NCBI RefSeq assembly: GCF_000190595.1
Contig: NC_015167.1
Span: 1,353,501-1,417,500, forward strand
Direction: 5' to 3'
Length of the DNA stretch: 64,000 nucleotides
Source: Cellulophaga lytica DSM 7489
GTDB lineage: Bacteria; Bacteroidota; Bacteroidia; Flavobacteriales; Flavobacteriaceae
Below, one piece after another: positions 18,795 to 49,209 of the stretch. The translations under genes were made by a program, and so were the position numbers. Each line of letters begins with the position of its first letter. Position 1 is the first letter of the stretch. The notes beneath the pieces were generated by a model. The model did no database searches, was not told the origin of the DNA, and worked only from the letters and a program-made list of their open reading frames with translations.

Positions 18795-19946
18795 CTAAAC
18801 TTCATAACTTTTATTTCCGTAGTGCATTTTAATCTGCGCTAACTGACCAACAATTTTAATAGAATCTTTCATAGATAATTTAGAGCCATCTGCGTGTATC
18901 CACCTTTTTAATGGTTGCTCGCAAATTAACTGCTGCACATTATCTTTTCCGTATTTCTTTTTCATACGCATAAAGATCTCTACATCAAACAACCAACGTG
19001 TAATAAACTTTTTATTAAACATTGTAGTTGCTATTTCTCTGTCCATTATTTTAGCTCCACATTGGGTATCTTTAAATGGCATTTTTAATATATTTTGTAT
19101 AATAAGGTTTATGGTTTTACTTATTATTTTTCGAGCAGATTCTTTAGTAATATCTGCTCCCATTCTGCTAATTCTAGAACCACTTACAATTTTATACTCA
19201 GAGTTTTCTATGGTTTTAACTAATTCATCAAAATCTCTAAAATCTGTAGATAAATCTGCATCTAAATAGCCTATATAGTCAAACTGAGAATCTTTTGCTA
19301 AATGCAATACTCCTTGACGAACCGCTTCTGCTTTACCTCCATTTTTTTTACAATTGTAAACACTAATGGTATTTTCACTTTCTTTTCTTAATTCTTCTAA
19401 AACTTCTAAAGTATTATCTGTACTACCATCATTTACAAAACACAAGTGGTAGCCCAGGTTTTTTTGGGCAAAATCTTTAAACTCTGCACTAGATAGCCTA
19501 TCTGCTTCATTATAACAAGGTATAACAACACCTACACAATTTTTTTGTAGCATTTGTGCACCATCAACCTTTGTAGCGGTTTTAGCCTCTGTAGGAGCAC
19601 CAACAATACGCTTAACACGTGCTGCTACTTCTTCTAAACTTACAGGCTTCTTCATATAGTCATCTATACCAAGATTAAATCCGTCTAAAATTATATCTTC
19701 ATCTGTATTACCAGACATTACCATTATTGCCGTACTAGAATTGTTTTTAATGTGCTTTACCACATCTAAACCGCTCATATCTGGCATATTAATATCTACT
19801 ATTACAAGATCTGGCTTAAAAGAGTTAAAAGTTTCTATTCCGGTTGCTCCAGAACTTGCTGTTTGTACTTGGTATCCTAAATCAGTTAATTTTTTTTCTA
19901 CGGAGAGTAAAATTAATTGCTGATCATCAATAGCTAAAATTTTCAT
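18795..19946 (-). CDS. Response regulator receiver fused to a GT2 glycosyltransferase
   Basis: A 383-residue fusion. Residues 1-118 are a CheY-like receiver with acidic pair Asp7/Asp8, phospho-acceptor Asp51 in VIVDINMP, and the KP dipeptide at about 100. Residues 137-375 are a family 2 glycosyltransferase of the dolichyl/polyprenyl-phosphate glucosyltransferase type: VVIPCYNEADR, FVNDGSTDNT, the DAD metal site (229-231), VSGSR and DTQCGAK. No membrane segment is visible. The GT2 part should load a sugar from a nucleotide donor onto a lipid phosphate, and the receiver suggests that phosphorylation controls this. The divergent gene encodes a large membrane protein that could use such a lipid-linked sugar. 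Its promoter has the LytTR-type box, its leader has CUUAACCU against the ATG, and its stop codon UAG lies inside AGGUUAAG. Confidence 0.9.
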   Translation of the reverse strand: MKILAIDDQQLILLSVEKKLTDLGYQVQTASSGATGIETFNSFKPDLVIVDINMPDMSGLDVVKHIKNNSSTAIMVMSGNTDEDIILDGFNLGIDDYMKKPVSLEEVAARVKRIVGAPTEAKTATKVDGAQMLQKNCVGVVIPCYNEADRLSSAEFKDFAQKNLGYHLCFVNDGSTDNTLEVLEELRKESENTISVYNCKKNGGKAEAVRQGVLHLAKDSQFDYIGYLDADLSTDFRDFDELVKTIENSEYKIVSGSRISRMGADITKESARKIISKTINLIIQNILKMPFKDTQCGAKIMDREIATTMFNKKFITRWLFDVEIFMRMKKKYGKDNVQQLICEQPLKRWIHADGSKLSMKDSIKIVGQLAQIKMHYGNKSYEV

Positions 19947-20005
19947 AGGTTAAGGTTTTTTTGTTTTGGGGAAAAGGTTATAGTTTTTACCATAACTTTC
20001 TGGTA

Positions 20006-20075
20006 CAAAGGTACTACGGTTATATAACTAAAAAGTTAGCAGCAAGGTCAATAACCGTTTTCTGTAGACGAGTGG
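20006..20075 (-). promoter_or_regulatory. REC-GT2 promoter with LytTR-type box 42 bp upstream of the -7 element
   Basis: Read on the minus strand, TACCTTTG (20006-20013) fits the Bacteroidota -7 consensus TAnnTTTG. The box at 20055-20075 (plus-strand core TGTAGACGAGTGG) begins 42 bases upstream of it. A weak copy lies 21 bases nearer the promoter. There is no TTG at the -33 position, which fits activator dependence. The same spacing recurs at three other promoters in this window. Confidence 0.7.
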
Positions 20076-20161
20076 TTTTGTAAGCAAGTTAACATACATT
20101 ATTTATAATACCACAATATGTTTATCTTTATCTTGTTTTATATTCTTACAGGTTAAAATTT

Positions 20162-23100
20162 ATGAAGAGAACCAATATTTTATTAATATTAGCTCTTATT
20201 GTTGGTATTGCTTTCCATGGGTCTAGTATTTTCTTTACGTTAGAGAATACTTATGATGCATTAATTCACCTGTTTTTTGCAGACCATTACGCTAATAGTT
20301 GGTTTGAGCCTTGGGATTATAGGTGGTATACTGGTTTTACAGTACAAGCGTACCCGCCTTTAGTACACCAACTAATAGGTCTTTTATCTTACATAGGCGG
20401 TTTAAAATTTGGTATGTTTACCGTTGCTCTTTTAGCTATAGTATTATTTATAACTGGTGCGTATAGATTTGGGTTGCTTATAACCGCTAATAGGCGCGTT
20501 GCTGGTTATACTGCATTACTAGCTGTTTTTTCTTCAACATTTATAGAAACCCTACACATATTTGGGCAACTGCCCAGCATTATGGGCTTATCTATATTAC
20601 TGCATAGTATACCAGAAATATATTTGTGGATAAAAGAAGGTAGAATTAGGTACTTGGTTACAAGTTTATCTTTAATTGCTGTAACAGTAACGTCTCATCA
20701 TGTTACACCAATTTTTGGTATGGTATTCTTTATATTTCCGTTAATTGGTATGGTGATAATGGATACAGCTAAAGACAAAGTAAAAGACACTAAAGCAATA
20801 CATTTAAAAACATTTATTTGGGCATTTAAAAAGCTATTTTGGCGTATTGTAACTTTTGGTTTTTCATCATTAATGCTCATTATATTTTGTATTCTTCCGT
20901 ACTGGGTAAACTCTAAAAAAAATCCAATAACTCAGGTTCCTATTCCGCATGGCTCTAGAGACAACTTTTTAGAGGTTTTATCTTCTGGCTTGGTCTTTTT
21001 TATGATTCCGTGGGGAATATTACTATTTATACTACCTTATATTTTTTATAGGTTTTACAGCAAGCGCTACTTATTTTTTGGACTATCTTTTTCTATGCTA
21101 ACTATTTTAGGAACAGGTGGCACAACACCTATTCCTTTAAAACTATTAGGAGAAACCGCTTTTAATATTTTAACCTTAGACCGTTTTACTCTTTGGGCTA
21201 CAATTATGGCCTTACCAATATTTGGTGAGTTTGCATATAGGATGATAGAAGGCGATTTAAAAAACAACATTCAAAAAAGGTTTGGAGCTGTATATCACAG
21301 AATTGTGGGTGGTTTTTTTATGGTTGGCATATTATTTATGGTAATTTTTACAATGAGCTTGGGCTATTTTAGACCATCACAGCCAGCAAAAATTAAAATG
21401 CTGCCTATTGTAAACTTTTTAAATCAGGATCAGCATGATCATTGGCGTTACTTAACTCTTGGTTTTGGAGACCAAATGGCTTGGCTATCTGCGCAAACAA
21501 AAGCAATGACTGTAGATGGCAATTACCATTCTGCTCGAAGGTTACCAGAGCTTACCACTAGAGCTATAGAACGCTTAGAAAATTCAAAATTTAGAGGCGT
21601 AGAAGGTATTGGATCCTTACAACAATTTTTAACGGTACCAGAAAAATACAATTTAAAGTATATTTTTTCTAACGATAAGTTTTATGATCCCATATTGTAT
21701 TTCTCTGGCTGGCAACGTTTGCAACAGTTAGAAAACGGCATAATGGTTTGGGAGAAACTAAATGTACCTCCAATACCTGCAATTATACCAAAAGAAGACG
21801 TACCTACATTTTTAAAAATAATGTGGAGTACTATTCCTGTTTTAACCATTTTACTGGCCTTTATTATTAATATTCAAATGGTGTGGTACAGAACGCTAAA
21901 ATCTAAAAAACTAGCGTTACCATCTTACTTAAAATACAGAATAGAGTACACAAAATTTTCTAGAGGCTTAGTAACCGTTAATCATATTTGGGCAGGAATT
22001 GTTATGGTTTGTTTAGCCTACGGCGGATATTTATTTTATGTAGAAAACAGCACACAACTGTCTGCTAAAAATGTAGTAACTGCTTATTATGATGCTGTAG
22101 ATTTTAAAGAGTTTGAAAGGGCTTTTTCATACATTAATCCAGATGACGGTGTTAGCCTTTCTCAGTATATGTTAGAAATTTCTGTTACAGATGGTATTTT
22201 AAGTTCATACGCAAAGTTAGACTCCATTGGCATTTCATTTGTAAACAAAACAAAAAACAGTGCAAAGGTTAAAGTAGACACAAGGTGGATTACACCTTTA
22301 GATGCAGTAGAAAAAACGTTTTATCACACTGTAAAAAAGAAAAAAAATAAATGGTACTTAAGCGTTTCTAAGTTAGATAATGACTTACCACCAGACCAGT
22401 TGTTTACAGATAATTCTACTACATTTTTTAACCATGGCAGAAGAAAAATAACCACAGAGCAAACACACCATGAAGATGTTTTAAAACAACCCGTTTTAGA
22501 AATTTTAACTGCAAAATTAATAAAATACAATGGCAGGTATAGTATAATTGGGCAAATACAAAATGTAGACAACGTACCGTCTGATGTTGTTATTAAAGGC
22601 ACCCTTTACAATGATAAAAATAAAGAGTTGGCTAACTATAATGCTAAAGACAACATAAAACACAAGCTAATGCCTAAGGAGATTACCGCATTTAAAATTA
22701 ATTTTGAGGGTATTGCTTGGTCTTCTACCAAAGATACTTTGCCGCCAACATTTAATCCGGATGAGTTTACACCAATTAATTTAGAAGAAATACCAACCAA
22801 ATTTAATTTACAGTGCGCTGGCAATGTTGCCAATACAGATTTGTATAAAAAATTGTCTTTGCAAGAGTTAAACTTTACTAACAATACAATGAGCGGCTCC
22901 CTTTTTAACTCTGGCGTACAGGAGGTTACTATACCTCAGCTATTAATTTCTTATTATGACAATGATAAAAAACTAGTTTGGGTAGATCATAATTTTTTAT
23001 CTGAAGGTGTACGTATACAAAGAAAACAACATTTTAACTACAACCTATTAAACCTTAGCAATTTAAAAGTTATTAGTGATGATATGACAAATTGTTTTGT

Positions 23101-26034: not shown

Positions 26035-26056
26035 TGTGGCTTAACCTCACCATAAT

Positions 26057-27328
26057 TTATTTTACTAAAAGCTCTACTGCTTCTCTTTCTTTCTCCATCT
26101 CTCTTTCTTTTTCTCTTTCTGCTATAATAGTATCAATACTTATGTTTCCGGCTTTAGCCATTTGTATTGCTGCAAAATAATCTACATACATCTGTGCAAT
26201 ATCAGACATTGGTAAAGAGCACGCTGCTTTATAATTTATTTTACTTAATTCTTCGCGGTAATCATCATATGTAATAATGTTTTCTATTGCATCTGCTAAA
26301 GATTCTGCACTTTCTGGCTCAAAAAATTCACCTTTATAACCTTCTTCCTTAACTAGTATGCTTAAATCTCCTAAATCTGGTAACGCAACTGCTTTTCCGT
26401 AGCTACCTGCTTGGTGTAAAACTCCAGAGCTACCTGTTGTAGATGTGTAAGGAAAAACTACCACTGCACTATCATTAAAAATAACAGGTACATCTTCTTC
26501 TGCAACATAACCAGTAAACCTAAGTTGGTCTACGTGCTTATATTTTTCGCTCACTTCATTTAAATAACCTGGTGTGTTTGGGCTATCTGTACCTGCTATT
26601 ACTATTTCTATATCTTGTTTTGTACGCTGACGAATAATTTCTACAGCATCAATTAAAATTTCTACTTTTTTGTATGTTCCAAACTTTCCAAAAGCCATTA
26701 CTTGCTTAGGACCTTTTGGTAATTGATAAGTTGGTTCTGGCGGAGTTTCAAAAGCACCATGAGGAATTAAAGCAACGTTTCTAGACTTGTATTTGCTTTC
26801 TAAAATACCTTTGTATTTGCTTATTGTTACGGCTAAAATATCTGAAGATAAAATTACTTTAGTTAATGAAGCTCCAATAAAATTGTATGCTTTTTTAAGA
26901 AAACTACTTTTAGTTATACCAGCATTTTCTAAATCTACCTGCTCTAATATATTGTGCAGTAAAGATATTGTTGGTATTCCTTTTAATTTACATATTAAAG
27001 GCAACATTAAACCTAACGCAGCAGGTACTTTTTTGTCTCCAAATTTTAAAAACTGAAGGTTAAATAAAACTGCGTCTGGTTTAGTGTCTGCAATTGCGCC
27101 CATAATACCAAAAACGTTTTTATAGCTATTAAAACTCCAGCATTCTTTTACTGTAATTTTACAGCCTTCTTCTGTAAAAGAAAGATCTTTTGCTTCTTTG
27201 GTTTTGTCTGTAATTAAGACTATTTCAGTTACTTCTTTTTGTAGTCTAAAATGTTTTACCAAGTGGTATCCGTATTCTGTTAAAGTTACTTTACTTGGTG
27301 GGTACGCTGTTACAATTGCTAATTTCAT
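26057..27328 (-). CDS. Family 4 glycosyltransferase
   Basis: Cytoplasmic GT-B-fold glycosyltransferase of 423 residues. The N-terminal acceptor domain starts MKLAIVTAYPPSKVTLTEYG. The C-terminal nucleotide-sugar domain shows KQVMAFGKFGTYKKVEILIDA, FTGYVAEEDVPVIFNDSAVVVFPYTS and TGSSGVLHQAGSYGKAVALPD, the EX7E-like region of GT4. The tail is a highly charged Glu/Arg/Lys helix (about 398-423). It is transcribed alone from a promoter with a LytTR-type box 42 bases upstream of its -7 element. Its leader has AACUUAACCU two bases before AUG. In exopolysaccharide clusters such an enzyme builds or extends the chain. The donor sugar is unknown. Confidence 0.92.
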   Translation of the reverse strand: MKLAIVTAYPPSKVTLTEYGYHLVKHFRLQKEVTEIVLITDKTKEAKDLSFTEEGCKITVKECWSFNSYKNVFGIMGAIADTKPDAVLFNLQFLKFGDKKVPAALGLMLPLICKLKGIPTISLLHNILEQVDLENAGITKSSFLKKAYNFIGASLTKVILSSDILAVTISKYKGILESKYKSRNVALIPHGAFETPPEPTYQLPKGPKQVMAFGKFGTYKKVEILIDAVEIIRQRTKQDIEIVIAGTDSPNTPGYLNEVSEKYKHVDQLRFTGYVAEEDVPVIFNDSAVVVFPYTSTTGSSGVLHQAGSYGKAVALPDLGDLSILVKEEGYKGEFFEPESAESLADAIENIITYDDYREELSKINYKAACSLPMSDIAQMYVDYFAAIQMAKAGNISIDTIIAEREKEREMEKEREAVELLVK

Positions 27329-27369
27329 AAGGTTAAGTTTTAATAATTTATTTGGGATAAATTGTTATA

Positions 27370-27439
27370 CAAATATCCATCTTAAAGCCTTATTTAATAG
27401 GGGTTAAGAGACCAAATACCATTTACTGTAGACGAATGG
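27370..27439 (-). promoter_or_regulatory. GT4 promoter with LytTR-type box 42 bp upstream of the -7 element
   Basis: On the minus strand GATATTTG (27370-27377) is a one-mismatch TAnnTTTG box. The regulator box at 27419-27439 contains the plus-strand core TGTAGACGAATGG and starts exactly 42 bases upstream. A degenerate copy (AGAC.AA) lies one 21-base period closer. No -33 TTG is visible. Confidence 0.7.
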
Positions 27440-27634: not shown

Positions 27635-28870
27635 TTATATGTTTCGTTTTGATGAAAAGTAAAGTAGTTGTGCAAAAAGTAATGCCAACATTACTATAAT
27701 TTGTAGTTGTACAACCATAGCTAAACTGCTATGAAAAAATACGATTAATCCTATTTGTGATAATCCTAGTATACCAGATAATATTACCGGAACATAATAG
27801 TCTAGAGATAAAAAATAATATGCAAATATGTTAGATATAGCAAAAAGCGATGTTGCTAATGCATACTGCCATAATAAAGATGACATTTCTAAATAGGCAT
27901 CACCAAACATTAATGATATAATTGTTTCTGGAAAAAGGTAGCAACCAGCAACTATAGTTACAGATAGTAAACTTATATAACCAACATACTTAAATAAAAT
28001 TGGTGCTGTACGTTTACCTTCTTTTCTTTTTTCTATTACTGCTGGTAATAATAACATTACAAACATCCAAGCTACAAAATAAACTACTCTACCTATTAAT
28101 GCTAAAGAAGCATAAAGCCCGGCATCTAAAGAATTAAAATAATGTTTTACTAAAAGTACATCGCTATTGTTTATAATAATTTGCGTAAGCTCATAACCGG
28201 CTGTTAATAGTATAAATGTGGTAACTTTCTTTTTATTTTCTACAGTTAAAATATTAGATGCAGCAAAAGATATTTTCTTAAATTTTATTGGCATTAATCC
28301 AAAAACAAAAGATATTACTATACCTACAGCTACTAAAAAAGCAGAGTTCATTGGTACTAATAACAATAAAGCTAGTGTTACTAACAATCTGCTCCACATT
28401 TCTGATTGGTAGGTTACAGATAAGTTAGTATAATTTTGTTTGCCTTGGTATTTTCCTCTTTTAATAGACATTATAAAGTAAAGCGGAATACCTACAGCAA
28501 ATACTCTAAACATTGTTACAGATTCTGTATTAAATAACTGCTGTAAATTGTTTGCAAATAAAAATAATAAAGCCCCTATAGCAACACCAAAAATAATGGC
28601 GTATTTGTGCATATAGTTTTCAAAAGCTTTCCATTGGTTACCAGAAAACAAAATATTAAACTTGGTGGTTACCAACTGAAAAGTCATTCCTACAAAAGAA
28701 AGCACCAACAATAATGTTATTAGTAAAGCTGCATCTGCAAAGGCAGCAGGCCCTAACATACGCCCTAGTATTAAGTTATACAGGTAGTTGCCTCCATTTA
28801 CAACAAGTACACTTGTCATAAATATTTGTTCTGGAGTTATTTTTTTATTTACAAAACTAAACGCGGTCAT
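27635..28870 (-). CDS. Polysaccharide flippase / MATE-like exporter (Wzx or PelG type)
   Basis: Inner-membrane protein of 411 residues with about 12 hydrophobic helices. The N-terminus (SVLVVNGGNYLYNLILGRMLGPAAFADAA) is typical of the polysaccharide biosynthesis/flippase superfamily. I chose the Met at 28870 because it directly precedes this conserved start. Upstream in-frame codons lie inside the STAS gene. With this start the two genes overlap by 14 bases in different frames, which suggests translational coupling. It should move a lipid-linked or growing polysaccharide across the inner membrane. It is transcribed with the STAS gene from a LytTR-type promoter. Confidence 0.9.
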   Translation of the reverse strand: MTAFSFVNKKITPEQIFMTSVLVVNGGNYLYNLILGRMLGPAAFADAALLITLLLVLSFVGMTFQLVTTKFNILFSGNQWKAFENYMHKYAIIFGVAIGALLFLFANNLQQLFNTESVTMFRVFAVGIPLYFIMSIKRGKYQGKQNYTNLSVTYQSEMWSRLLVTLALLLLVPMNSAFLVAVGIVISFVFGLMPIKFKKISFAASNILTVENKKKVTTFILLTAGYELTQIIINNSDVLLVKHYFNSLDAGLYASLALIGRVVYFVAWMFVMLLLPAVIEKRKEGKRTAPILFKYVGYISLLSVTIVAGCYLFPETIISLMFGDAYLEMSSLLWQYALATSLFAISNIFAYYFLSLDYYVPVILSGILGLSQIGLIVFFHSSLAMVVQLQIIVMLALLFAQLLYFSSKRNI

Positions 28871-29159
28871 TGCTAAAGATATAAGAAGTGTTAGACATTT
28901 CCATAATAGAAGCAATTTGTTTATTCTCCTGACCAACAATAGCTAAAACCTTATTGTTTTTTGCTACTTTAATGTATAGTTGCTCTAACTGCTTTGCGCT
29001 AGAATACATTATGTTATTTACATTGTCTAGAGATAAAATTAGCTTTTCATTACCTTTTAAGTAATAGTCTATATGGCTTTTAAGTGCTTTCATATTCTGA
29101 GAGTTAAGGTTTCCTTTAACTTCCATAAAATTGTTAATGTGATCTATACGTAATGCCAT
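28857..29159 (-). CDS. STAS domain protein (anti-sigma-antagonist-like)
   Basis: A 100-residue protein made of a single STAS fold: the strand IDHINNFMEVKGNLN, a helix, LILSLDNVNNIMYSSAKQL with Ser residues at the site phosphorylated in SpoIIAA-type proteins, then LAIVGQENKQI. In that family the phosphorylated or free form binds a partner kinase or target. No anti-sigma or RsbW-type kinase gene is in this window. The gene overlaps the flippase gene by 14 bases, so it may gate polysaccharide export. Its promoter has two LytTR-type boxes 21 bp apart, and its leader contains AACUUAACCUA. Confidence 0.85.
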   Translation of the reverse strand: MALRIDHINNFMEVKGNLNSQNMKALKSHIDYYLKGNEKLILSLDNVNNIMYSSAKQLEQLYIKVAKNNKVLAIVGQENKQIASIMEMSNTSYIFSNDRV

Positions 29160-29200
29160 AATAATTGTGTTTTAGGTTAAGTTTGTATTATTTGTTACAG

Positions 29201-29270
29201 CAAATATCTTTTTTTAATAAAGGAAAAATTGCCGCCTGTAGATGATTGGCCGTTTACTGTAGACGAATGG
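29201..29270 (-). promoter_or_regulatory. STAS-flippase promoter with two LytTR-type boxes in tandem
   Basis: On the minus strand GATATTTG (29201-29208) serves as the -7 box. Two 21-base boxes abut: a weaker one at 29229-29249 (TGTAGATGATTGG on plus) and a strong one at 29250-29270 (TGTAGACGAATGG). The strong box starts 42 bases upstream of the -7 element and the weak one 21 bases. The divergent exporter gene at 29386 could share these sites. Confidence 0.75.
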
Positions 29271-29385: not shown

Positions 29386-31458
29386 ATGAAGAAAATTGTA
29401 TTCTATTTATTACTTATTGCAACTGTAACAGTTTATGCACAGGAAGACTTAACTCCTGGTTTTAAAATGCTAGAAAAAGGCAATTTTAAAGAGGCTAAAA
29501 CTTTTTTTAAACCATTGGCACAAGCTTACCCTACCAATAAAACAATATTAATATGTTACGGTAGAGCAGTAGGTTTAAGTGGAGAACCTAAAGTTGCTAA
29601 TACCATATTTAAAGGTTTATTAGAAAAGCACCCAAATGATTTTGAGGTTCAAATAAACTATTACGAGTCCTTTTTATGGGCCAATCAATTTAAAGAAGCC
29701 AAACCATTATACGCAGACCTAGTTGCAAACAACCCTAAAAACTTTGCTGCCATATTAGGTTATGCCAACACATTAAGTAACTTAAAAGAGTATAAAGAGG
29801 CTTTAAAGTGGGTTAACAAAGCTATAGAGGTAGATCCTGATAATAATAGTGCCAAAGTATCTAAAAAGTATATTAAGCTTGGTTACGCTAATTATTACGT
29901 TAATAACCAAAACTATAAAAAAGGAGAAAGTTTATTAAAAGAAATACTTGAAGATTTTAAGGACGATAAAGATGCACTCCTAAATTTGGCCAATATTTAT
30001 TTAATTACCAAAGATGTAAACAAAGCTAAAAATACATATTACCAATATGCTAAAACACCTAAAGATACTGTAACCGCATTAATTGGAATTGCACTAGCAG
30101 AGCATATTGGAGAAAAAGACAAAATAGCCTTAGAAACAGCCATTAATGCCAAACAAAAGGCAGAAAAAATTGAAGATTTTGAACTTATTGAAAAAAGTAA
30201 CGAACGTTACGTACAGGCTTTAATTTGGAACCGCAAATTTGTTTCTGCAAAAAAAGAAATAGAGGTATTAGAAGAAAAATATCCAAACCGTAATTGGGTG
30301 ATGTCTTTAAAAGCAACTTTAGGTATGTATACTTCTAAATTTAAAACCAGTATTAGTAATTACAATACTATATTGGCTAATGATAGTTTGTCTTTTGACG
30401 GTAATTTAGGTAAAGCAAATGCTTTATTTGCTTCAGATAAAATTGTACCTGCATACGTTACAACATATAAAACATTAGAAATTTTTCCGAAACAGAAAGA
30501 TGCTACTGGGCTTATAAAAAAATTAAATAAAAACTACACTCCGTTTGCAGAACAACAAGTTAGCTACACGTTTGATAATGGAGACAACACTGCTCTTTCT
30601 TTAAAAACAGCAGCGATGGTACCTTTATCTACCAAATTTAAAACAACTGTAACATACCAATACAGAACCACAGAAAACACTACAACAAACAATAAAGCAA
30701 CAGCACATTTAGTACAAGCAGATGTTGAGTATAAGTTAATGCCACAAACTAATTTATTAGCTTCTGCAGGTTTTAACAACTCTAGGTTTTCTAACACGTC
30801 ATACACACAACCTATACTACAAGCCAAGTTACAAACTAAACCTTTGTCTTTTTTAAACTTAGATTTGGGCTACCAAAGAGAAGTACAAAGTTTTAATGCA
30901 GAACTTATAGAAAGAGAAATAGTAATGAACCACTATAGCTTAATTTACAATTTAAGCACTAATTTTAACTTAGGTTGGTACACACAACTAATACATACTA
31001 AACAGACAGATGATAACGAGAGAAATTTACTTTTTACCTCTTTGTATTATAATGTGTTAAGAAAACCAGCTTTAAAATTTGGACTAAACTACCAATACAT
31101 AACTTTTAAAGACCAATTACCAGTAATTTACTTTAGTCCAGAAACCTATAAAGCCTTTGAACTTTTTGGTGATGTAAGAGGTAAAATAAACGAAAAAACA
31201 AATTATTTTGCTAGTGCAGCTACAGGCTTACAATATGTAGAGGAGCAAGATGCTAGTTCACTCTTTAGAGCCGAAGCTGGCTTAACACACCAGTTTTCTG
31301 AAAGACTTATTGGTGATGTGTATGGCAAATATAGTAACATTGCCTCTGCAACTGCTGCTGGTTTTGAGTTTACAGAAGTTGGTATTAAACTAAAATACTA
31401 CCTAACAAAAAAACCATTATTTTTAGATAAGCTGAAGAAAAAATATCAAATAAAATAA
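29386..31458 (+). CDS. TPR and beta-barrel outer-membrane polysaccharide exporter
   Basis: A 690-residue outer-membrane protein. A signal peptide (about 1-19, ending VYAQ) is followed by tetratricopeptide-like helices (about 20-385, such as KEALKWVNKAIEVDPDNNSAKV). A C-terminal beta-barrel with alternating aromatic strands (about 390-690) is of the YaiO type. This TPR-plus-barrel design is that of PgaA, PelB and BcsC exporters, in which periplasmic TPRs guide the polymer to the pore. The gene is divergent from STAS-flippase across 226 bases that contain the tandem LytTR-type boxes, and is followed by its own terminator. The barrel end is an amphipathic YYLTKKPLF segment, not a classic terminal Phe. 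Confidence 0.82.
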   Translation: MKKIVFYLLLIATVTVYAQEDLTPGFKMLEKGNFKEAKTFFKPLAQAYPTNKTILICYGRAVGLSGEPKVANTIFKGLLEKHPNDFEVQINYYESFLWANQFKEAKPLYADLVANNPKNFAAILGYANTLSNLKEYKEALKWVNKAIEVDPDNNSAKVSKKYIKLGYANYYVNNQNYKKGESLLKEILEDFKDDKDALLNLANIYLITKDVNKAKNTYYQYAKTPKDTVTALIGIALAEHIGEKDKIALETAINAKQKAEKIEDFELIEKSNERYVQALIWNRKFVSAKKEIEVLEEKYPNRNWVMSLKATLGMYTSKFKTSISNYNTILANDSLSFDGNLGKANALFASDKIVPAYVTTYKTLEIFPKQKDATGLIKKLNKNYTPFAEQQVSYTFDNGDNTALSLKTAAMVPLSTKFKTTVTYQYRTTENTTTNNKATAHLVQADVEYKLMPQTNLLASAGFNNSRFSNTSYTQPILQAKLQTKPLSFLNLDLGYQREVQSFNAELIEREIVMNHYSLIYNLSTNFNLGWYTQLIHTKQTDDNERNLLFTSLYYNVLRKPALKFGLNYQYITFKDQLPVIYFSPETYKAFELFGDVRGKINEKTNYFASAATGLQYVEEQDASSLFRAEAGLTHQFSERLIGDVYGKYSNIASATAAGFEFTEVGIKLKYYLTKKPLFLDKLKKKYQIK

Positions 31459-31501: not shown

Positions 31502-32224
31502 TTATAATAGGTTTAACCTTCTCATTAATTCTGGCCTGTTAGACCTACTAATAGGCACTACATTTTTCTCAATAAGTACACTATTGTCTTCTATATCTAT
31601 AATTTTTGTGAAATTAATTATATAAGATCTATGTATTTGCAAAAACAACTTTTCTGGTAACTTGTCTTTAATTTTTTTTAGAGTATTGCGTACTCTGTAG
31701 TTTTCTTTTGTTGTTTTAACCTCTATATAATCTCCTTTAGCTTCAATAAGTTGTATATCATTAAAGTTAATTTTTATAAGACGTCTATCTATATTAATAT
31801 ATAGTTCTTGGCCCAATGCTGTGTTGCTTTTTGTAGTGTCCTCAGAAACAGTTTCTGGTTCTGGAGCCTTAGCAAGTGCTGCTTTTACTTTTTGTATAGA
31901 TTTATTAAAACGATCTTGTGTAACTGGTTTTACTAAATAATCTACAATTGACTCATACTCATAAGCCTCAATAGCGAAGTTGGTATCTGAGGTTGTTAAA
32001 ACAATTTTTGGCGGATTTTTTAATGTTTGTACAAAGTCAAAACCACTAAAACCAGGCATATGTATATCTAAAAAAATAACATCTACTGTATTCTGATTTA
32101 AAAACTTTATAGCCTCCATTGCGCTTCCAAAGGCATCTATAACCTCTAACTCTTCAACGTTAGAGCAAAGTTGTGCAACTATTAACCTAGCTGTTGCCTC
32201 GTCGTCTACTATAATACAATTCAT
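31502..32224 (-). CDS. LytTR family response regulator
   Basis: A 240-residue DNA-binding response regulator. The receiver spans about 1-120, with Asp7/Asp8, phospho-acceptor Asp53 in IFLDIHMP, and the KP pair in DYLVKPVTQ. The LytTR DNA-binding domain spans about 140-240 (QELYINIDRRLIKINFNDI, IEAKGDYIEVKT, LFLQIHRSYIINFTKI). LytTR regulators such as AlgR and AgrA bind paired 9-base half-sites about two helical turns apart. The TGTAGACGAATGG boxes found at four nearby promoters have this form, so they are its best candidate sites. It is last in the signalling operon, 3 bases after the Hpt gene. Confidence 0.95.
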   Translation of the reverse strand: MNCIIVDDEATARLIVAQLCSNVEELEVIDAFGSAMEAIKFLNQNTVDVIFLDIHMPGFSGFDFVQTLKNPPKIVLTTSDTNFAIEAYEYESIVDYLVKPVTQDRFNKSIQKVKAALAKAPEPETVSEDTTKSNTALGQELYINIDRRLIKINFNDIQLIEAKGDYIEVKTTKENYRVRNTLKKIKDKLPEKLFLQIHRSYIINFTKIIDIEDNSVLIEKNVVPISRSNRPELMRRLNLL

Positions 32225-32227
32225 AGT

Positions 32228-32545: not shown

Positions 32546-32546
32546 A

Positions 32547-34741: not shown

Positions 34742-34749
34742 AACTAAAA

Positions 34750-36732
34750 TTAATTATTAAGATCTTTTTTTAAAGTAAAAAAGAATTTTGTCCCTTTACC
34801 TAACTCACTCTCTACCCATACATTACCTTCATAACGGTCTACAATTTTTTTAACTATTGATAGGCCTATACCCGTAGAGCGCTCATTATCTCCTATTGAT
34901 TGAAAAATTTCGAATATCTTTTTATGAAACTTTTCTGGGATACCAACACCATTATCTTCTATACAAAATTGCCAATGCTGTGGTTCTTCTTTATAAAGTA
35001 CTTGTACTAATCCTTTTTCTGCTTCAATATGAACAACTGCATTTCCAATAATATTTTGGAAAAGCTGATGCATTTTTGTACTATCTGCGTTTAAAAGCGG
35101 TAGTTTTTTTGGAACAACTACCTGTACATGATCTGGAATATAAATACTCTCTGTAATGTCTGTTATTACAGTATTTAAATCTACTTTACTGGTAGACATT
35201 TGTGCGCTACCAGCTGTAGAATACTCTAAAATTCCGTGAATTAGCTTGTCCATGAATGCAACTTTCTCTTGCATTAACGTTAGGTTTTGCACACCTGCTT
35301 CATCTAAAACGTCTTTATAATCTTCATAAGTCCAAGTAGCTAAAGCACTAATACTACGTAATGGAGATTTAAGGTCATGAGAAACTATATGGGCATATTC
35401 TTGTAAACCATCATTACTAATTTTAAGCTCTTTTAATAATTGCTCCTTTTGTAACTCTAATTCTTTTTGCTCTGTAATATCTAAATGTATACCTATAGAA
35501 CCTACAACCTTGCCTTCTTCATTATAATTTGGAGCACCACTTACTAGCCAGTGTCTTGTTTCTCCTTTTTTATTTTTTATTTTTATTTCATAAGAGTCAG
35601 AGATTCCTTTTAATCTATTTTCAGACTTTTTCTCTATTCTTTCAGAGTTCTCTATCTTCAATATTTTTACAGCATCTTCCCCTAAAAGTTCATCTTTAGA
35701 GTATCCGCTCATTTTACAAAAACTCTGGTTAACAAGCTGTACTTCATTATCTATGGTAACTTCTACCATACCTAAATTCATATTAGCAATAATACCCCTG
35801 TACTTTTCTTTTTCTGCTTTTATTTTTTCTTCTGCTTGGCGCTCTTTTGTGATGTCTTCTATTACGCAAACCTGGTACTCTACTTTGCCTTCGTTATTTT
35901 TAACGGCACTAATACTAGCTTTTGCTAAAATCTGAGCTCCATTTTTTTTGAAAAATCTTTTTACAATAGAAAAATTATCTATTAAACCTGCATTTAAGTC
36001 AGACTCTAATTTTTTTGTCATTTCTTCATCCTCGGACTCAGATATGTCTGATAATTTTAATTTTCTGGCAACATTTTCTGGGTATCCTAAAAGCGCCGCA
36101 AATGTAGCGTTACTCTTTATTATTTCATCATTAACTGTTAGTACAATACCTAGCGGAGAGTTTTCTACAATTATGTCTAATTGTCTTTTTTGCTCGCTTA
36201 GCATTTCCTTAATTTCAGTTTCTTTACTAATGTCTCTTATAATACCTTGTGCACCTATTGGTTTTTGTTCTTTATCATAAATTACACTAGTATTTATTTG
36301 CACCCATTTATGTGTGCCATTTTTTGTGATAATTTTAGATCTGTAGTTTTTTAACGTACCTATTTGCATTAGAGTTTTAAAAGATTCTATGGTGTATTGC
36401 ATAAAATCTTTGTGCACTAATTTTGGCAGGTTAATAGTTTCTTTAGTGTTGTCATACCCTAAAAATTCTCTAGCAGAACTGTTCATATTAACAACATTAA
36501 AGCTAAGATCCATTACTACGTATGGGTCTATAATATTAACAAAACCACCATCTAATTTAGAGGTAGTTTCGGTTAATAAATTCTCTAATTTATTATTAGC
36601 TTGTTTAAGGTGTAAGGTAGTATCAAAAAGCTCTTTAGATTTTACTTCTAAAATTTTTTCTGCTTGTAGCCTTGCTTTTTTCTGTCTTTCTAACGCCTTT
36701 TTTAGTAATAAAATTTCTTTGTTACTATCCAT
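34750..36732 (-). CDS. PAS-containing hybrid-free histidine kinase
   Basis: A soluble kinase of 660 residues from the Met at 36732, which overlaps the H-NOX stop by 8 bases. An ATG at 36747 is the alternative. Order: a coiled coil (about 1-55, LKKALERQKKARLQAEKIL), three PAS/PAC domains (about 60-175, 185-305 and 310-430), HisKA (His in YAHIVSHDLKSPLRSISAL, near 450) and HATPase (QNIIGNAVVHIE, DNGVGIP, STGIGLSIVKKI). No receiver is attached. The coupling to the H-NOX gene fits the known pairing in which H-NOX controls the adjacent kinase. Confidence 0.93.
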   Translation of the reverse strand: MDSNKEILLLKKALERQKKARLQAEKILEVKSKELFDTTLHLKQANNKLENLLTETTSKLDGGFVNIIDPYVVMDLSFNVVNMNSSAREFLGYDNTKETINLPKLVHKDFMQYTIESFKTLMQIGTLKNYRSKIITKNGTHKWVQINTSVIYDKEQKPIGAQGIIRDISKETEIKEMLSEQKRQLDIIVENSPLGIVLTVNDEIIKSNATFAALLGYPENVARKLKLSDISESEDEEMTKKLESDLNAGLIDNFSIVKRFFKKNGAQILAKASISAVKNNEGKVEYQVCVIEDITKERQAEEKIKAEKEKYRGIIANMNLGMVEVTIDNEVQLVNQSFCKMSGYSKDELLGEDAVKILKIENSERIEKKSENRLKGISDSYEIKIKNKKGETRHWLVSGAPNYNEEGKVVGSIGIHLDITEQKELELQKEQLLKELKISNDGLQEYAHIVSHDLKSPLRSISALATWTYEDYKDVLDEAGVQNLTLMQEKVAFMDKLIHGILEYSTAGSAQMSTSKVDLNTVITDITESIYIPDHVQVVVPKKLPLLNADSTKMHQLFQNIIGNAVVHIEAEKGLVQVLYKEEPQHWQFCIEDNGVGIPEKFHKKIFEIFQSIGDNERSTGIGLSIVKKIVDRYEGNVWVESELGKGTKFFFTLKKDLNN

Positions 36733-37267
36733 TCTGGGTAATGTCAAATTTTACTTCGGTACCGTTTTCATTTAAAAGTTTGTACGTTACAGTTGCACTG
36801 CTATTAAAATGCTCAAAAGATTTTTCTATTAAGCCGTGCGCTAATTGGTACAATCCTCTGCTAGATGAGTATACCATAGAAATAGATGTGTCTGTCTTTT
36901 CTAAAATTTTAAACGTAGGTAATTCTGCGTCTGGATATAATTTTTTAACGTGTACGTGTATGTGGTCTTCAATAGAATAGATGAGGCTTAACGGTGAGTT
37001 ATAGCTTTTAATAACATCTGGGTGTGCTTTAGCCAAACCGTCAAACAAAAATAAACCAAAAGCATAAATTAAATCTCCTACTGGTGTTTTTACCTCAGAG
37101 CTTAAACTGGTAATAAGACTTACCATTTCATTAAAATTATACGTTCCAACAGATGTGTAAATTCCTTCTGATGGCAAATTAGAGTTTTCTATTATGGTGT
37201 CTACAGTTTCTAATCCAAACTTAGATTCTACCATTTCTAAAAACTCTGTAAATACAACTCCCTTCAT
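36725..37267 (-). CDS. H-NOX heme nitric-oxide sensor
   Basis: A 180-residue H-NOX (HNOB) domain protein of standard length. It begins MKGVVFTEFLEMVESKFG. The proximal heme ligand is His104 in the signature IHVHVKKLYPDAELPTF, and the propionate-binding YxSxR motif is Tyr133, Ser135 and Arg137. These residues match the family exactly, so heme and nitric oxide binding is very likely. Oxygen-binding H-NOX proteins carry a distal Tyr; I cannot identify one by eye. The gene overlaps the PAS kinase start by 8 bases and lies 78 bases after a receiver gene. Confidence 0.95.
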   Translation of the reverse strand: MKGVVFTEFLEMVESKFGLETVDTIIENSNLPSEGIYTSVGTYNFNEMVSLITSLSSEVKTPVGDLIYAFGLFLFDGLAKAHPDVIKSYNSPLSLIYSIEDHIHVHVKKLYPDAELPTFKILEKTDTSISMVYSSSRGLYQLAHGLIEKSFEHFNSSATVTYKLLNENGTEVKFDITQNG

Positions 37268-37345
37268 AATTAGACATTTAGAGCTGTAAAAGTAAGAAAA
37301 AGGATACCTAGGGTGTAATTTTTGTTGTGAAAGGTGTTAAAATTA

Positions 37346-37747
37346 CTAGCCTTTTACTAGTTCATTGTTGTCCCAGTAGTTTAAAACACTTTGTAATTTG
37401 GTTTCATAATCCTCATATTTTAGAGGCTTTATTACATAACCTGCAATTCCTATTCTATAACATTCTAATAAATCTGCTCTATTTTCTGATGTAGTTAATA
37501 CTATTGTTGGTAAAAATTTAAGCTTTTCATCTGCCTTTAAAACACTTAAAAACTCAGTGCCACTCATTCTTGGCATATTTAAATCTAACAAAATTATATC
37601 TGGTAATGTATTTCCAGATTGTAGTATATCTAGAGCTTCCTCACCGTTTTTTGCTTCGGTAATGTTGTGTTTTAATTGAAGTTTAGAGATCGTTCTCTTC
37701 AGCTTCATCGTCTCGATCATGTCGTCTTCAATAAATAAAATATTCAT
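37346..37747 (-). CDS. Single-domain response regulator receiver
   Basis: A 133-residue CheY-like receiver with no output domain. Acidic residues Glu7, Asp8 and Asp9 precede phospho-acceptor Asp55 in LLDLNMPRMSG, and the KP pair is in GYVIKPLKYEDY. It is the first gene of the signalling operon and carries its LytTR-type promoter. The leader is only about 20 bases and has no CUUAACCU. Single receivers of this type act as phosphate relays or bind target proteins. Here it could feed the Hpt protein or control a polysaccharide enzyme. Confidence 0.95.
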   Translation of the reverse strand: MNILFIEDDMIETMKLKRTISKLQLKHNITEAKNGEEALDILQSGNTLPDIILLDLNMPRMSGTEFLSVLKADEKLKFLPTIVLTTSENRADLLECYRIGIAGYVIKPLKYEDYETKLQSVLNYWDNNELVKG

Positions 37748-37767: not shown

Positions 37768-37858
37768 CAAATGTAATATCCCATTTCTAATTAATTTTTA
37801 CTATAAAGTTGAACAGTAAATTAGTGTAGACGAATGGTAGTTTACTGTAGATGGATAA
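37768..37858 (-). promoter_or_regulatory. Signalling-operon promoter with two LytTR-type boxes
   Basis: On the minus strand TACATTTG (37768-37775) is a perfect -7 box. Two boxes with period 21 lie upstream. One is at 37817-37837, with a perfect TGTAGACGAATGG on plus but a degenerate left half, and starts exactly 42 bases from the -7 box. The second is at 37838-37858 (TTTACTGTAGATGG). Because the operon encodes the LytTR regulator, this suggests autoregulation. Confidence 0.72.
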
Positions 37859-46605: not shown

Positions 46606-46643
46606 AGCTACGACATTTTTTTAACTTAAAAATAGATATAATT

Positions 46644-47252: not shown

Positions 47253-47272
47253 AAAATTACACTTAAAAATAC

Positions 47273-47305
47273 AAAAGCCACTCTAATTTTAGAGTGGCTT
47301 TTTTT
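47273..47305 (+). terminator. Terminator after superoxide dismutase
   Basis: AAAAGCCACTCT and AGAGTGGCTTTTT form a 12-bp stem with a 6-base loop, followed by a T-run. Confidence 0.93.
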
Positions 47306-47337
47306 ATATAAAATTTCTACTTAATTCTATAAAATAG

Positions 47338-47408
47338 AAAAGGGCAGAGAAGTCTCTACCCTTTTCGTCCCAAATCTTACCATAAACTTAACCTACTTAT
47401 GCTATGGC
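47338..47408 (-). ncRNA. Small RNA family copy 1
   Basis: One of four near-identical units of about 70 bases, read on the minus strand. It starts near GCCATAGCATAAG (47408) and carries the seed UAGGUUAAGUU (around 47387-47394). An 8-base block AUUUGGGA follows, then a terminator stem AAAAGGGUAGAG/CUCUGCCCUUUU with ACUU loop and a U-rich tail. The 5' part can fold as CCAUA/UAUGG, leaving the seed in the loop. AUUUGGGA matches the GT4 leader block UCCCAAAU exactly, unlike copies 2-4. Its -7 box, TAATTTAG, has one mismatch. No reading frame of note. Confidence 0.7.
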
Positions 47409-47412
47409 TCTG

Positions 47413-47420
47413 CTAAATTA
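47413..47420 (-). promoter_or_regulatory. -7 element of small RNA copy 1
   Basis: On the minus strand TAATTTAG (one mismatch to TAnnTTTG) ends 4 bases before the conserved start of the unit. Confidence 0.5.
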
Positions 47421-47533
47421 CTGGTATTGTGTCTAATAAAAAAAAAAATCTGCAAAAAAATTAACACAATAACATAGAATATTGCAAATAATATCGATGA
47501 AATGCACCCTAATAGCTTGATTACAAGCAAACA

Positions 47534-47559
47534 AAAAGACGAAGTTTCCTTCGTCTTTT
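47534..47559 (-). terminator. Hairpin resembling the small RNA terminators
   Basis: AAAAGACGAAG/CTTCGTCTTTT with a GAAA loop on the minus strand, nearly identical to the copy 2 terminator but without the conserved CCATAGC..AGGTTAAG part or a clear -7 box. It is 100 bases after the metallopeptidase stop and is probably its terminator, or a decayed fifth unit. Confidence 0.7.
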
Positions 47560-47659
47560 CTCCAAAAACCAACTAGAAATTCAACTCAAAAATCCCATAG
47601 TTTTGTTAAAATTTTAGCGCTAATTAAAAAATTATACTAAAGTAGGTGTTCATAAATTT

Positions 47660-48556
47660 TTAATCTAGATTAAAATACTCTTCATCAGACATTTCTCCGT
47701 TGCTAATTTTTTGCAATTCTTTTGCGTAAGAACGTATATACTTATCTAATTCTGCATTAAAATATTCAGATTTTTCTTGCTTGTAAGATCCATTTAAAAC
47801 TCCGTTATAGTAGTAAAAAAAGTTGTAGTCAAAACTAGCCGCATTTAAATCATAAGCACCTAATAAAAACCCTAATCTTACTGCAGAGCGTCTTTGGTAA
47901 CTACGCCCGTGGTGACCAGGACTGGTTGTGTTATTATCTCCAATAGAAGCTGCAAATTCATAAGCAGTAGCTATCTGAGAAAAACTAGTTTTGTTATAGC
48001 CATTAGGTCTTCTTAAATAGTAACCTGCCATACCATCTGCCTCTAATTCTGCTGCTCTGGCAGTAGATTCATTTTTAGATGGGTAACCGTATGTAAATTG
48101 TAATTGATGAGCAAACTCATGTGCTAATATCATAACATTTGCTATTTGCCCTTGTGCCTTTGCAGCATTATAAATGGCTTCTCCGTAATAAATTTTACCA
48201 CTACCATAAGATATAGCATTGTAAGTAGAGTTAGGGTTAGAGTTGTCTTTTACAAAACTAAGTGGCACAGCTGGTCTTCCCCATACTGCTGCAATTTTAG
48301 AGTTTTGTGTTTGCATAAAATTAGTCTCAGAAGACGTTCCTATAGAACTGCTTAAATATGCTGTACTACTCCAGTTTCCGTCTACATAACCACATTCATA
48401 TAATTCGTTTTCAAAAGCTTCAGAAATTGCCAACTCTTGTGCTTCTGCAACTTCGGTTTGCTGTTCCAAAGAGTCTGTATCTTTAGAACAAGATTGTAAA
48501 ACTGCTACAAAAGTTAACCCTAGTAGGTAGGTTCTTTTAAAATTTAAGTTTTTCAT
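47660..48556 (-). CDS. Zincin-type metallopeptidase lipoprotein
   Basis: A 298-residue lipoprotein (signal ends VLQSC, Cys23). The zinc motif HEFAH (HExxH type) lies at about residues 146-150 in MILAHEFAHQLQFTYG. A downstream Glu in AAELEADGMAGYYLRR is the likely third ligand, the pattern of neutral zinc metallopeptidases of the YpfJ/gluzincin kind. The substrate is unknown. The gene is embedded in the small RNA region, with copy 1 on its 3' side and copies 2-4 on its 5' side, all transcribed in its direction. No CUUAACCU is seen in its own leader. Confidence 0.82.
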   Translation of the reverse strand: MKNLNFKRTYLLGLTFVAVLQSCSKDTDSLEQQTEVAEAQELAISEAFENELYECGYVDGNWSSTAYLSSSIGTSSETNFMQTQNSKIAAVWGRPAVPLSFVKDNSNPNSTYNAISYGSGKIYYGEAIYNAAKAQGQIANVMILAHEFAHQLQFTYGYPSKNESTARAAELEADGMAGYYLRRPNGYNKTSFSQIATAYEFAASIGDNNTTSPGHHGRSYQRRSAVRLGFLLGAYDLNAASFDYNFFYYYNGVLNGSYKQEKSEYFNAELDKYIRSYAKELQKISNGEMSDEEYFNLD

Positions 48557-48768
48557 AATTAATATTGTATTGATTATTAGTTAACACAATATTAGTAAAT
48601 ATTTTCCTACTATTTATGCAATAAGTTAAAAAAATTAACAATACAAATATAACTATCGGATAACTAGAGTATTAGAACTCAAATAAGGATTGAAAAAATG
48701 AAAACAACTAGTACTATGATAGTTACAGCTAAATAAAAATGAAGACTTTACAAATTATGGGTAAAAAT

Positions 48769-48837
48769 AAAAAGGCGAAGTTTCCTTCGCCTTTTTCCCC
48801 AAATCTTACCATGAACTTAACCTACTTATGCTATGGT
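48769..48837 (-). ncRNA. Small RNA family copy 2
   Basis: A 69-base unit on the minus strand. It starts ACCATAGCATAAG, then has UAGGUUAAGUU, AUUUGGGGAAAAAGG and the terminator stem AAAAAGGCGAAG/CUUCGCCUUUUU with a GAAA tetraloop. The first 41 bases are identical to copy 3, while the terminator stem differs by paired changes. A perfect TACATTTG -7 box ends 5 bases before the start. The plus-strand position of the seed complement is 48816-48823. Confidence 0.75.
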
Positions 48838-48842
48838 GATAA

Positions 48843-48850
48843 CAAATGTA
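48843..48850 (-). promoter_or_regulatory. -7 element of small RNA copy 2
   Basis: TACATTTG on the minus strand, a perfect TAnnTTTG, 5 bases before the conserved ACCATAGC start. Confidence 0.65.
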
Positions 48851-48965
48851 TATTAATTATATAGTGCAATAAACAATATTAGTTAAACTAAAGAGTTTAC
48901 TAGACTAAGTGATTTTTATATATTTTTTTTAAAAGGAATTGAATTTCAGGAAAGTAGTAAAAAAT

Positions 48966-49034
48966 AAAAAGGTAGAGTCTCCTCCACCTTTTTCCCCAAA
49001 TCTTACCATGAACTTAACCTACTTATGCTATGGT
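48966..49034 (-). ncRNA. Small RNA family copy 3
   Basis: A 69-base unit on the minus strand. The 5' part is identical to copy 2 (ACCATAGC, UAGGUUAAGUU, AUUUGGGG). The terminator stem is AAAAAGGUGGAG/CUCUACCUUUUU with a GAGA loop, so three stem bases changed while pairing was kept. A perfect TATCTTTG -7 box lies 4 bases upstream. The seed complement on plus is at 49013-49020. Confidence 0.75.
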
Positions 49035-49038
49035 ACAG

Positions 49039-49046
49039 CAAAGATA
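49039..49046 (-). promoter_or_regulatory. -7 element of small RNA copy 3
   Basis: TATCTTTG on the minus strand, a perfect TAnnTTTG, 4 bases before the conserved start. Confidence 0.65.
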
Positions 49047-49142
49047 ACTTAAGTTTATATTTTGTTCCTAAAGTATCGGATTAACGCCCATTTCATCAGT
49101 CCAACTACATATTATCCGATGAATGGTATAGTATAAAAAATA

Positions 49143-49209
49143 AAAAGGCGGAGTTTCCTCCACCTTTTCCCCAAATTTTACCATGAACTTAACCTACTTA
49201 TGCTATGGT
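49143..49209 (-). ncRNA. Small RNA family copy 4
   Basis: A 67-base unit on the minus strand: ACCATAGC start, UAGGUUAAGUU seed, then UUUGGGGAAAAGG and terminator stem AAAAGGUGGAG/CUCCGCCUUUU with a GAAA loop. The 13-base UUUGGGGAAAAGG is a perfect complement of CCUUUUCCCCAAA in the REC-GT2 leader, which copies 2 and 3 match only with a bulge. A perfect TAATTTTG -7 box lies 5 bases upstream. The seed complement on plus is at 49188-49195. Confidence 0.75.

Follow-up and report, generated by a model that had tools for sequence, protein, structure and literature searches.

In Bacteroides, the FopS small RNAs (sRNAs) are multicopy transcripts of ~65–70 nt that share a seed and base-pair next to the start codons of several mRNAs related to polysaccharides, repressing their translation and, in vitro, abolishing it; one of the 14, FopS-14, derives from the 3′ end of an mRNA (PMC11697453). 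Here, we describe four sRNA genes of 75–78 nt, each with a terminator, that lie on the minus strand within positions 47331–49209 of a 64,000-nt stretch of Cellulophaga lytica DSM 7489 DNA (the window). We consider it likely that their products act in trans as siblings within an sRNA family that spans the Flavobacteriaceae, and that they repress translation of an exopolysaccharide (EPS) gene cluster by pairing at its start codons.

The likeness to FopS is that of multicopy Bacteroidota sRNAs with a shared seed and pairing, predicted in C. lytica, by the start codon. The FopS seed is the 5′ region, whereas the C. lytica seed comprises a hairpin loop and a linker; FopS targets are mostly SusC-type transporters, whereas the C. 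lytica candidates belong to EPS synthesis and adhesins; and the FopS genes are intergenic (nine), antisense (four) or 3′-derived (one), whereas the C. lytica copies stand in tandem at one place. FopS RNAs are bound and antagonised by RbpB. A second parallel is GibS of Bacteroides thetaiotaomicron, which brings two seeds (R1 and R2) to one target near the start codon, and differs by description in promoter type and targets. Rfp18 of Flavobacterium psychrophilum is likewise a conserved flavobacterial sRNA with an adhesin among its predicted targets, but is reported to pair via a third stem-loop and mainly with metalloprotease targets, while the C. lytica sRNA has two stem-loops (PMC9723704). It is by description that the two are set apart, and the C. 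lytica sRNA may prove to be Rfp18 or another Rfp transcript.

Siblings of the LhrC/Qrr type comprise several near-identical copies with separate promoters and shared targets. The C. lytica copies resemble them in acting, as proposed, from their own promoters on common targets, but bear no sequence relation to them. In Staphylococcus aureus, the icaR mRNA carries a 3′ untranslated region (UTR) motif complementary to its own translation start, in the control of exopolysaccharide; 5′–3′ UTR pairing of this kind may occur in the mRNA of the C. lytica glycosyltransferase gene GT4, although icaR is a regulator gene paired at its Shine–Dalgarno site, whereas GT4 would use a site shared with the sRNA. 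To our knowledge, and as an impression of the field, post-transcriptional control in the Flavobacteriaceae is little explored, with a single transcriptome study turned up by the literature searched. No description of the sRNA was found in the literature searched, which left subscription papers and supplements outside. Rfam 15 gave no match at gathering score within the window: the best match below cut-off in the array was STnc40 (34 versus 45 bits), FopS (RF04319, BTncRNA_FopS) reached at best 24.5 bits against a cut-off of 56, and Qrr gave a single match in the searched stretch, outside the sRNAs (20.8 versus 50 bits). Judged by its sequence, the sRNA would be of the multicopy base-pairing kind, in a family absent from Rfam 15.

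A family of small RNAs encoded between sodA and a purF-like gene

The four copies (s1–s4; Table 1) share the sequence RCCAUAGCAUAAGUAGGUUAAGUUYAUGGUAARAUUUGGG, followed by a short A-rich stretch, a 12–13-bp terminator hairpin and a run of U. The initial annotation, made from the letters of the window, had claimed a common seed for all four, and UAGGUUAAGUU is indeed present without mismatch in each (minus strand, 47385–47395, 48814–48824, 49011–49021 and 49186–49196). The predicted fold consists of two stem-loops, a 5′ hairpin whose end loop contains GUAGG and the terminator, joined by a single-stranded linker; shuffled sequences folded as well as the four sRNAs in 0, 1, 0 and 0 of 200 cases. 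With TAnnTTTG boxes before s1–s3 and terminator hairpins in all four, the sRNAs have, on the evidence of sequence, the layout of independent transcription units, and their conserved, exposed seed is complementary to the translation starts of several mRNAs. A conserved AUG within the core raises the alternative that the repeats encode a small peptide (AUGGUAAGAUUUGGG...). We regard this as extremely improbable and rejected it: the frame is not maintained, as changes of length after the core and a missing base in another type of the sRNA would yield different peptides, and the stem varies through compensatory changes.

Relatives were searched with a covariance model. The sRNA is present in all 18 genomes of the genus, with three to five model matches per genome, the weakest of them lacking the seed; four copies in C. 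lytica have the seed, a multicopy state shared with FopS RNAs. In a family sample of 397 genomes, 321 carry the sRNA at E ≤ 0.001, of which 12 have E > 1e-5 and are doubtful: among 30 lower-scoring genomes inspected, five of the six weakest lack the seed. Exact cores are found, among the matches listed, in Zobellia, Maribacter, Aquimarina, Winogradskyella, Salegentibacter and Flavobacterium, and array copies are often spaced ~200 bp apart. Across 206 sRNA loci, many of which end early, the purF-like gene is visible in 179 and sodA in 162, and every exact core falls between the two in all 138 loci showing both (some genomes contribute more than one locus). Conservation was assessed on a best-scoring sample of 118 distinct sequences from the 150 best matches: within the first 40 nt, variation at the 3% level is confined to positions 1 and 25, and the terminator stem shows double changes at 8 of 12 pairs. 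A second sRNA type has one A fewer in the linker and often starts with ACCAUAACAU. The Flavobacteriaceae form a large marine family whose members use polysaccharides and glide; this sRNA family is present in most of the genomes sampled and keeps to one chromosomal place.

A gene at 47660–48556 (minus strand) sits within the C. lytica array; its product contains HEFAHQ and weakly matches the YpfJ zinc-peptidase model (27.7 versus 250 bits), and a homolog is present in only 10 of the 206 sRNA loci.

Complementary sites in three EPS leaders

The initial annotation placed the seed complement CUUAACCU in the leaders of REC-GT2, GT4 and the STAS–flippase transcript. Its 8-mer CTTAACCT was found in all three, whereas the full 11-mer is exact only at STAS, with one mismatch each in REC-GT2 and GT4; the STAS site, said to lie 15 bases before the AUG, is at 14 by our measurement, which is near enough. 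The second complementary blocks described for REC-GT2 and GT4 were both located, in the right antiparallel order. Ten matches to CTTAACCT occur in the window, comprising the four sRNA complements, the three leaders and three on the opposite strand, of which those at 18789 and 26040 lie immediately beyond the stop codons of REC-GT2 and GT4 and that at 61157 lies within a gene; the statement that no other gene start in the window carries the site therefore holds. As 4.5 matches are expected, the number of 8-mer matches in the window carries no significance by itself; significance comes instead from its position, the second block, the predicted pairing and the recurrence in other genera.

Pairing was scanned with RNAduplex, using the first 46 nt of each sRNA against −60 to +20 of 47 gene starts in the window. 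The three leaders ranked first to third (REC-GT2 −30.3, GT4 −28.8 and STAS −28.7 kcal/mol), ahead of a fourth-best gene start at −24.3 and a mean of −17.0 kcal/mol. With the observed value taken as the best of the four sRNAs, 1000 shuffles of the s2 core yielded no pairing as strong for any of these leaders. The best partner is s1 for REC-GT2 and s4 for both GT4 and STAS. Predicted pairing begins 31, 34 and 41 nt before the ATG (REC-GT2, GT4 and STAS, respectively), ends 5–17 nt past it with internal gaps, and includes the second block in REC-GT2 and GT4. Leaders that start downstream of the sites would be incompatible with such pairing; in silico, the predicted starts lie upstream, with TAnnTTTG-like boxes ending 60 nt (REC-GT2) or 42 nt (GT4 and STAS) before the ATG, so the sites should fall inside the transcripts. 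Within the genus, the STAS site is kept in five of the six loci where the STAS gene was found (it was not found in nine), and the GT4 site in 7 of 15 loci.

Table 1. Positions in the window of the sRNA copies, the candidate target genes and their associated elements.
Feature	Positions	Strand	Sequence or remark
REC-GT2 gene (response-regulator receiver + GT2 glycosyltransferase)	18795..19946	-	target
REC-GT2 seed-loop site	19947..19954	-	CTTAACCT; touches ATG
REC-GT2 second block	19965..19977	-	CCTTTTCCCCAAA; complement of sRNA linker
REC-GT2 predicted promoter box	20006..20013	-	TACCTTTG
Box upstream of REC-GT2	20057..20071	-	TCGTCTACAGAAAAC; LytTR-like, a guess
Seed copy at REC-GT2 stop codon/3′ UTR	18789..18796	-	AGGTTAAG; in 1 of 80 REC-GT2 homologs examined, that of C. 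lytica itself
GT4 gene (glycosyltransferase group 1)	26057..27328	-	target
GT4 seed-loop site	27330..27337	-	CTTAACCT; 1 nt before ATG
GT4 second block	27350..27357	-	TCCCAAAT
Box upstream of GT4	27421..27435	-	TCGTCTACAGTAAAT
sRNA seed copy in GT4 3′ UTR	26040..26047	-	AGGTTAAG; between stop codon and terminator-like hairpin
STAS-domain protein gene	28857..29159	-	target; first gene, flippase behind
Polysaccharide flippase gene (Polysacc_synt_3)	27635..28891	-	behind STAS, overlapping it
STAS–flippase seed-loop site	29174..29181	-	CTTAACCT, inside exact 11-nt complement AACTTAACCTA
Box upstream of STAS	29252..29266	-	TCGTCTACAGTAAAC
TPR protein gene	29386..31458	+	CTTAACCT touching ATG in orthologs of nine other genera, not in C. 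lytica
sRNA s1, 76 nt	49134..49209	-	5′ hairpin with seed loop, linker AAAAUUUGGGG, terminator
TAnnTTTG box of s1	49215..49222		TAATTTTG
sRNA s2, 76 nt	48959..49034	-	
Box of s2	49039..49046		TATCTTTG
sRNA s3, 75 nt	48763..48837	-	
Box of s3	48843..48850		TACATTTG
sRNA s4, 78 nt	47331..47408	-	variant paralog: G start, UUUAUGG, GGGACGA linker, own conserved upstream element
s4 upstream element	47419..47430	-	ACAATACCAGTA; at last array copy in other genera
Degenerate fifth copy	47526..47601	-	E 9.8e-5; terminator present, seed gone; close relatives have one too

Recurrence of the site in other genera

Homologs of REC-GT2 were found at E ≤ 1e-60 in 113 of the 397 genomes, some aligned over the GT2 part only, and leaders were sampled from 80 stretches, nearly all of ~15 kb, around most of the full-length homologs. 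The starts of four EPS genes (REC-GT2, GT4, STAS and the TPR protein gene) were set by script from tblastn, and unusable rows were dropped (e.g. L199 and L209 for REC-GT2). Genomes were divided into higher- and lower-scoring groups by the best E-value of their sRNA, judged by eye with a somewhat arbitrary cut near 5e-16; the sRNA sequence itself was read in part of the genomes. Where the sRNA scores higher, 44 of 123 EPS leaders (REC-GT2 12/37, GT4 12/34, STAS 10/16 and TPR 10/36) have CTTAACCT no more than 30 nt from the ATG, versus 3 of 312 leaders of other open reading frames in the same stretches (ORFs; Fisher's P = 8.7e-24). The excess persists when TPR is not counted as a target (34/87 versus 13/348, P = 8e-17) and with one leader per gene and genus (34/86, P = 2.6e-22). 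At least one site occurs in 15 of 25 genera, Cellulophaga among the 15. As expected from pairing, many orthologs in other genera share the site at their start codon while the rest of the leader differs. Where present, it touches the ATG in 12/12 REC-GT2, 10/10 TPR and 4/12 GT4 leaders, with seven further GT4 sites one base away (0–1 nt in 11/12), and stands 7–17 nt from the ATG of STAS.

In genomes with a lower-scoring sRNA, by comparison, CTTAACCT is present in 0 of 104 EPS ortholog leaders and in 1 of 254 others, the latter a REC-GT2 paralog; in genomes with no detected sRNA, the counts are 1/10 and 0/43. With EPS sites in one part of the family and the seed unchanged where read, EPS control would be confined to that part, which makes this a good case for studying change in sRNA regulons. 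Seed co-variation across sRNA and targets, which would have been the strongest proof, was looked for and not seen, the seed being identical in nearly all copies read; what varies in the leaders instead is which of two sRNA parts is matched. Conservation of the sRNA far beyond the EPS sites implies that it has other targets, and would suit a reversed flow, with the leaders acting as decoys that keep the sRNAs from such family-wide targets by titration. The sites, however, are placed at start codons, and the several genes that carry them are distinct but related in function; we give the decoy model very little probability.

Loop and linker as separate predicted pairing regions

A 7-mer scan of sRNA nt 1–56 against the target leaders of the higher-scoring group gave two clear peaks of complementarity, at nt 14–24 (loop) and ~29–40 (linker), which coincide with the two blocks of the initial annotation and with the parts of the sRNA predicted to be exposed. 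With CTTAACC masked, linker complements stay enriched (AATCTTA 14/123 versus 1/312; ATCTTAC 8/123 versus 0/312). Site 1 is present in 48 of the 123 target leaders and site 2 in 25, with both in 5 and either in 68, compared with 5, 7 and 12 (site 1, site 2 and either) of the 312 background leaders; most leaders with a site therefore use one part of the sRNA or the other. The C. lytica GT4 leader has both sites by the motif definition, whereas the REC-GT2 second block, CCCCAAAA, falls outside the motif set. Shuffles reached the observed maximum in 2 (loop) and 5 (linker) of 300 trials, and those that did so probably recreate the same 7-mer. Loop 7-mers show nothing in the lower-scoring group (0–4 of 104).

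These peaks bear on whether CTTAACCT by the ATG is instead a cis-acting translation or DNA element of EPS genes, matched by the sRNA through coincidence. Fixation of the site to the start codon, its presence in three leaders of the background set and its absence from orthologs in lower-scoring genomes, where the seed is identical as far as read, would all suit such an element. It would not account for a second, different leader sequence that matches the linker even with the first site masked, for the prominence of loop and linker 7-mers among those of sRNA nt 1–56, or for the same two-block arrangement before other C. lytica genes (below). We therefore judge a cis element very unlikely, and trans-acting pairing remains our preferred account.

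Further candidate targets in the C. lytica genome

Pattern searches and inspection yielded candidates beyond the EPS cluster. CTTAACCT touches the ATG of a gene for an SprB-repeat adhesin, with TTCCCCAAG upstream, and a PorP/SprF gene has a site in the 26-nt gap behind an SprB-repeat gene. A GH3/serine-hydrolase gene is preceded by an exact TTCCCCAAATCTT plus CTTAACCT, and a LuxR-type response-regulator gene by CCCAAAT plus CTTAACCT. CCCAA occurs upstream in five of the seven C. lytica candidate leaders, for which the base rate gives P ~9e-6, the seven being hand-picked. Genome-wide, ACTTAACCT-N(0–18)-ATG has 22 matches versus 3 for the reversed pattern, although three sites among the 22 are double-counted, four matches are the sRNAs and most others lie away from gene starts; CCCAA-N(6–36)-CTTAACC is mildly above its reversed control (19 versus 13, with 4 of the 19 being sRNAs), and from these only matches at gene starts were retained. 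Most of the genomic CTTAACCT matches fetched fall within coding sequence or off gene starts and were therefore not counted as targets. Close relatives keep both blocks (CCCAA and CTTAACC), at five loci for the GH3 leader and at five for the LuxR-type leader. Of 30 loci, 5 retain the GH3 site (L379–L383, close relatives); of 19 loci, 5 retain the LuxR-type site (CTTAACC), and L414 and L421 have the CCCAAAT block without it.

Directly behind the sRNA site of the LuxR-type gene, before the main start codon, is a tiny frame, AUGCUAUUAUAG (L046:4110–4121), which is not clearly conserved.

Proposed mechanism of repression

In the mechanism that we propose, each sRNA would be transcribed from its own predicted promoter and would consist of a hairpin with GUAGGUUAAG in its loop region, the single-stranded linker GAUUUGGG(G) and, at the end, a Rho-independent terminator. 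In part of the family, comprising 15 of the genera sampled, the loop would pair with CUUAACCU at start codons of the EPS cluster, in the mRNAs of REC-GT2, GT4, STAS–flippase and, in other genera, the TPR protein, while the linker would pair with sites of the CCCAAAUCUUA type, which would add a second block or replace the first. A duplex over the bases immediately before the start codon would prevent the 30S subunit from binding, and repression of translation through blocked initiation appears the likeliest outcome. Because the site is shared, several genes would come under one control, which suggests a regulon in which matrix polysaccharide and surface adhesins are lowered together. Provided that the RNAs are made and pair in vivo, repression would result in less EPS and fewer adhesins, under the signals presumed to drive each copy. 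The candidate regulon (polysaccharide synthesis, SprB-type adhesin, PorP/SprF and a regulator) would link matrix production to surface adhesion and gliding in a gliding species.

Pairing could alternatively activate or stabilise the mRNAs. Consistent with this, the paired blocks of the GH3 and LuxR-type leaders lie 30–40 nt or more upstream of the ATG, and deletion of another sRNA of F. psychrophilum, Rfp18, reduced two target mRNAs (PMC9723704). We nevertheless think activation unlikely, as, across genera, the REC-GT2, GT4 and TPR sites, where present, are at or near the start codon, the position at which pairing prevents initiation in the Bacteroides case studied.

Several observations weigh against start-codon repression by these sRNAs. 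The seed is unchanged in the lower-scoring sRNAs where read, yet none of the 104 EPS ortholog leaders in those genomes has the site, and one of two GT4 leaders from genomes with no detected sRNA does carry CTTAACCT. By the motif definition used, 55 of the 123 target leaders in the higher-scoring group have neither site, and the TPR gene joined the targets once it had already supplied 10 of 13 background matches. CCCCAAA shows a slight excess in the lower-scoring group (7/104 target versus 5/254 other leaders, P = 0.03), perhaps in part from CCAAATTTG serving as promoter sequence. Occlusion of the start site fits less well for GH3 and LuxR-type sites 30–40 nt upstream of the start codon, and these are kept in close relatives only. 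In addition, the seed lies partly in a weak 3-bp inner stem of the minimum free energy fold of the sRNA.

A seed copy in the GT4 3′ UTR

The 3′ UTR of GT4 contains AGGTTAAG, which repeats the sRNA seed. At up to 80 nt from the stop codon, AGGTTAAG is present in 10 of 34 GT4 orthologs of the higher-scoring group (eight genera) versus 4 of 394 other ORFs (P = 2e-9), and near the stop codon of 0 of 360 ORFs in the lower-scoring group. It is associated with the 5′ site (9/15 versus 2/19, P = 0.003, with one base less allowed). Within the genus, the 3′ seed was seen in none of nine scored loci, six others ending too early to be scored. Related GGTTAG stretches are found in other GT4 3′ UTRs, so a different function is possible. 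We tentatively suggest, as a possibility that we rate below even, that the GT4 mRNA has both halves of the interaction, the 5′ target site and the seed AGGUUAAG, and that its 3′ end serves as a processed sibling sRNA or as a partner of its own 5′ end; FopS-14 provides a precedent for such a 3′-derived sRNA. If so, the polysaccharide transcript would make its own repressor, in a feedback loop parallel to the dedicated sRNA array.

Promoters and upstream elements

An ordinary TAnnTTTG box precedes s1–s3, and one is found 4–5 nt from sRNA nt 1 in 62 of 135 copies elsewhere. s4 has TATTTcnCACAATACCAGTAaTTTAG in its place. Of 194 loci, 62 have an s4-type element, which accompanies the final visible copy of the array (and in two loci the preceding copy as well), in a count where some genomes are represented by two loci and the array is incomplete in many stretches; all 64 sRNA copies with the element have the G start and UUUAUGG. 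The region upstream of s4 at 47408–47440 (minus strand) is conserved across genera: CACAATACCAGTAaTTTAG.

The promoters of the three targets have a TCGTCTACAGWAAAC box in common, with six matches in the window at no more than two mismatches versus 0.19 expected; it stands upstream of the ATG by 93–107 nt in GT4 and STAS and by 111–125 nt in REC-GT2. A LytTR response regulator is encoded at 31502–32224, and our guess is that this protein binds the box. A CCATTCGTCTACAGTAAACGG-like box is also present at 37840–37854 (minus strand), upstream of a response-regulator gene at 37346–37747, and in two cases a second copy of the CCATTCGTCTACAGTAAACGG-like box lies 21 bp away. Beside the EPS cluster, the minus-strand region 31502–37747 encodes the LytTR regulator, histidine kinases, FIST, H-NOX (haem-NO-binding) and receiver proteins, a neighbourhood that suggests a gas or ligand input.

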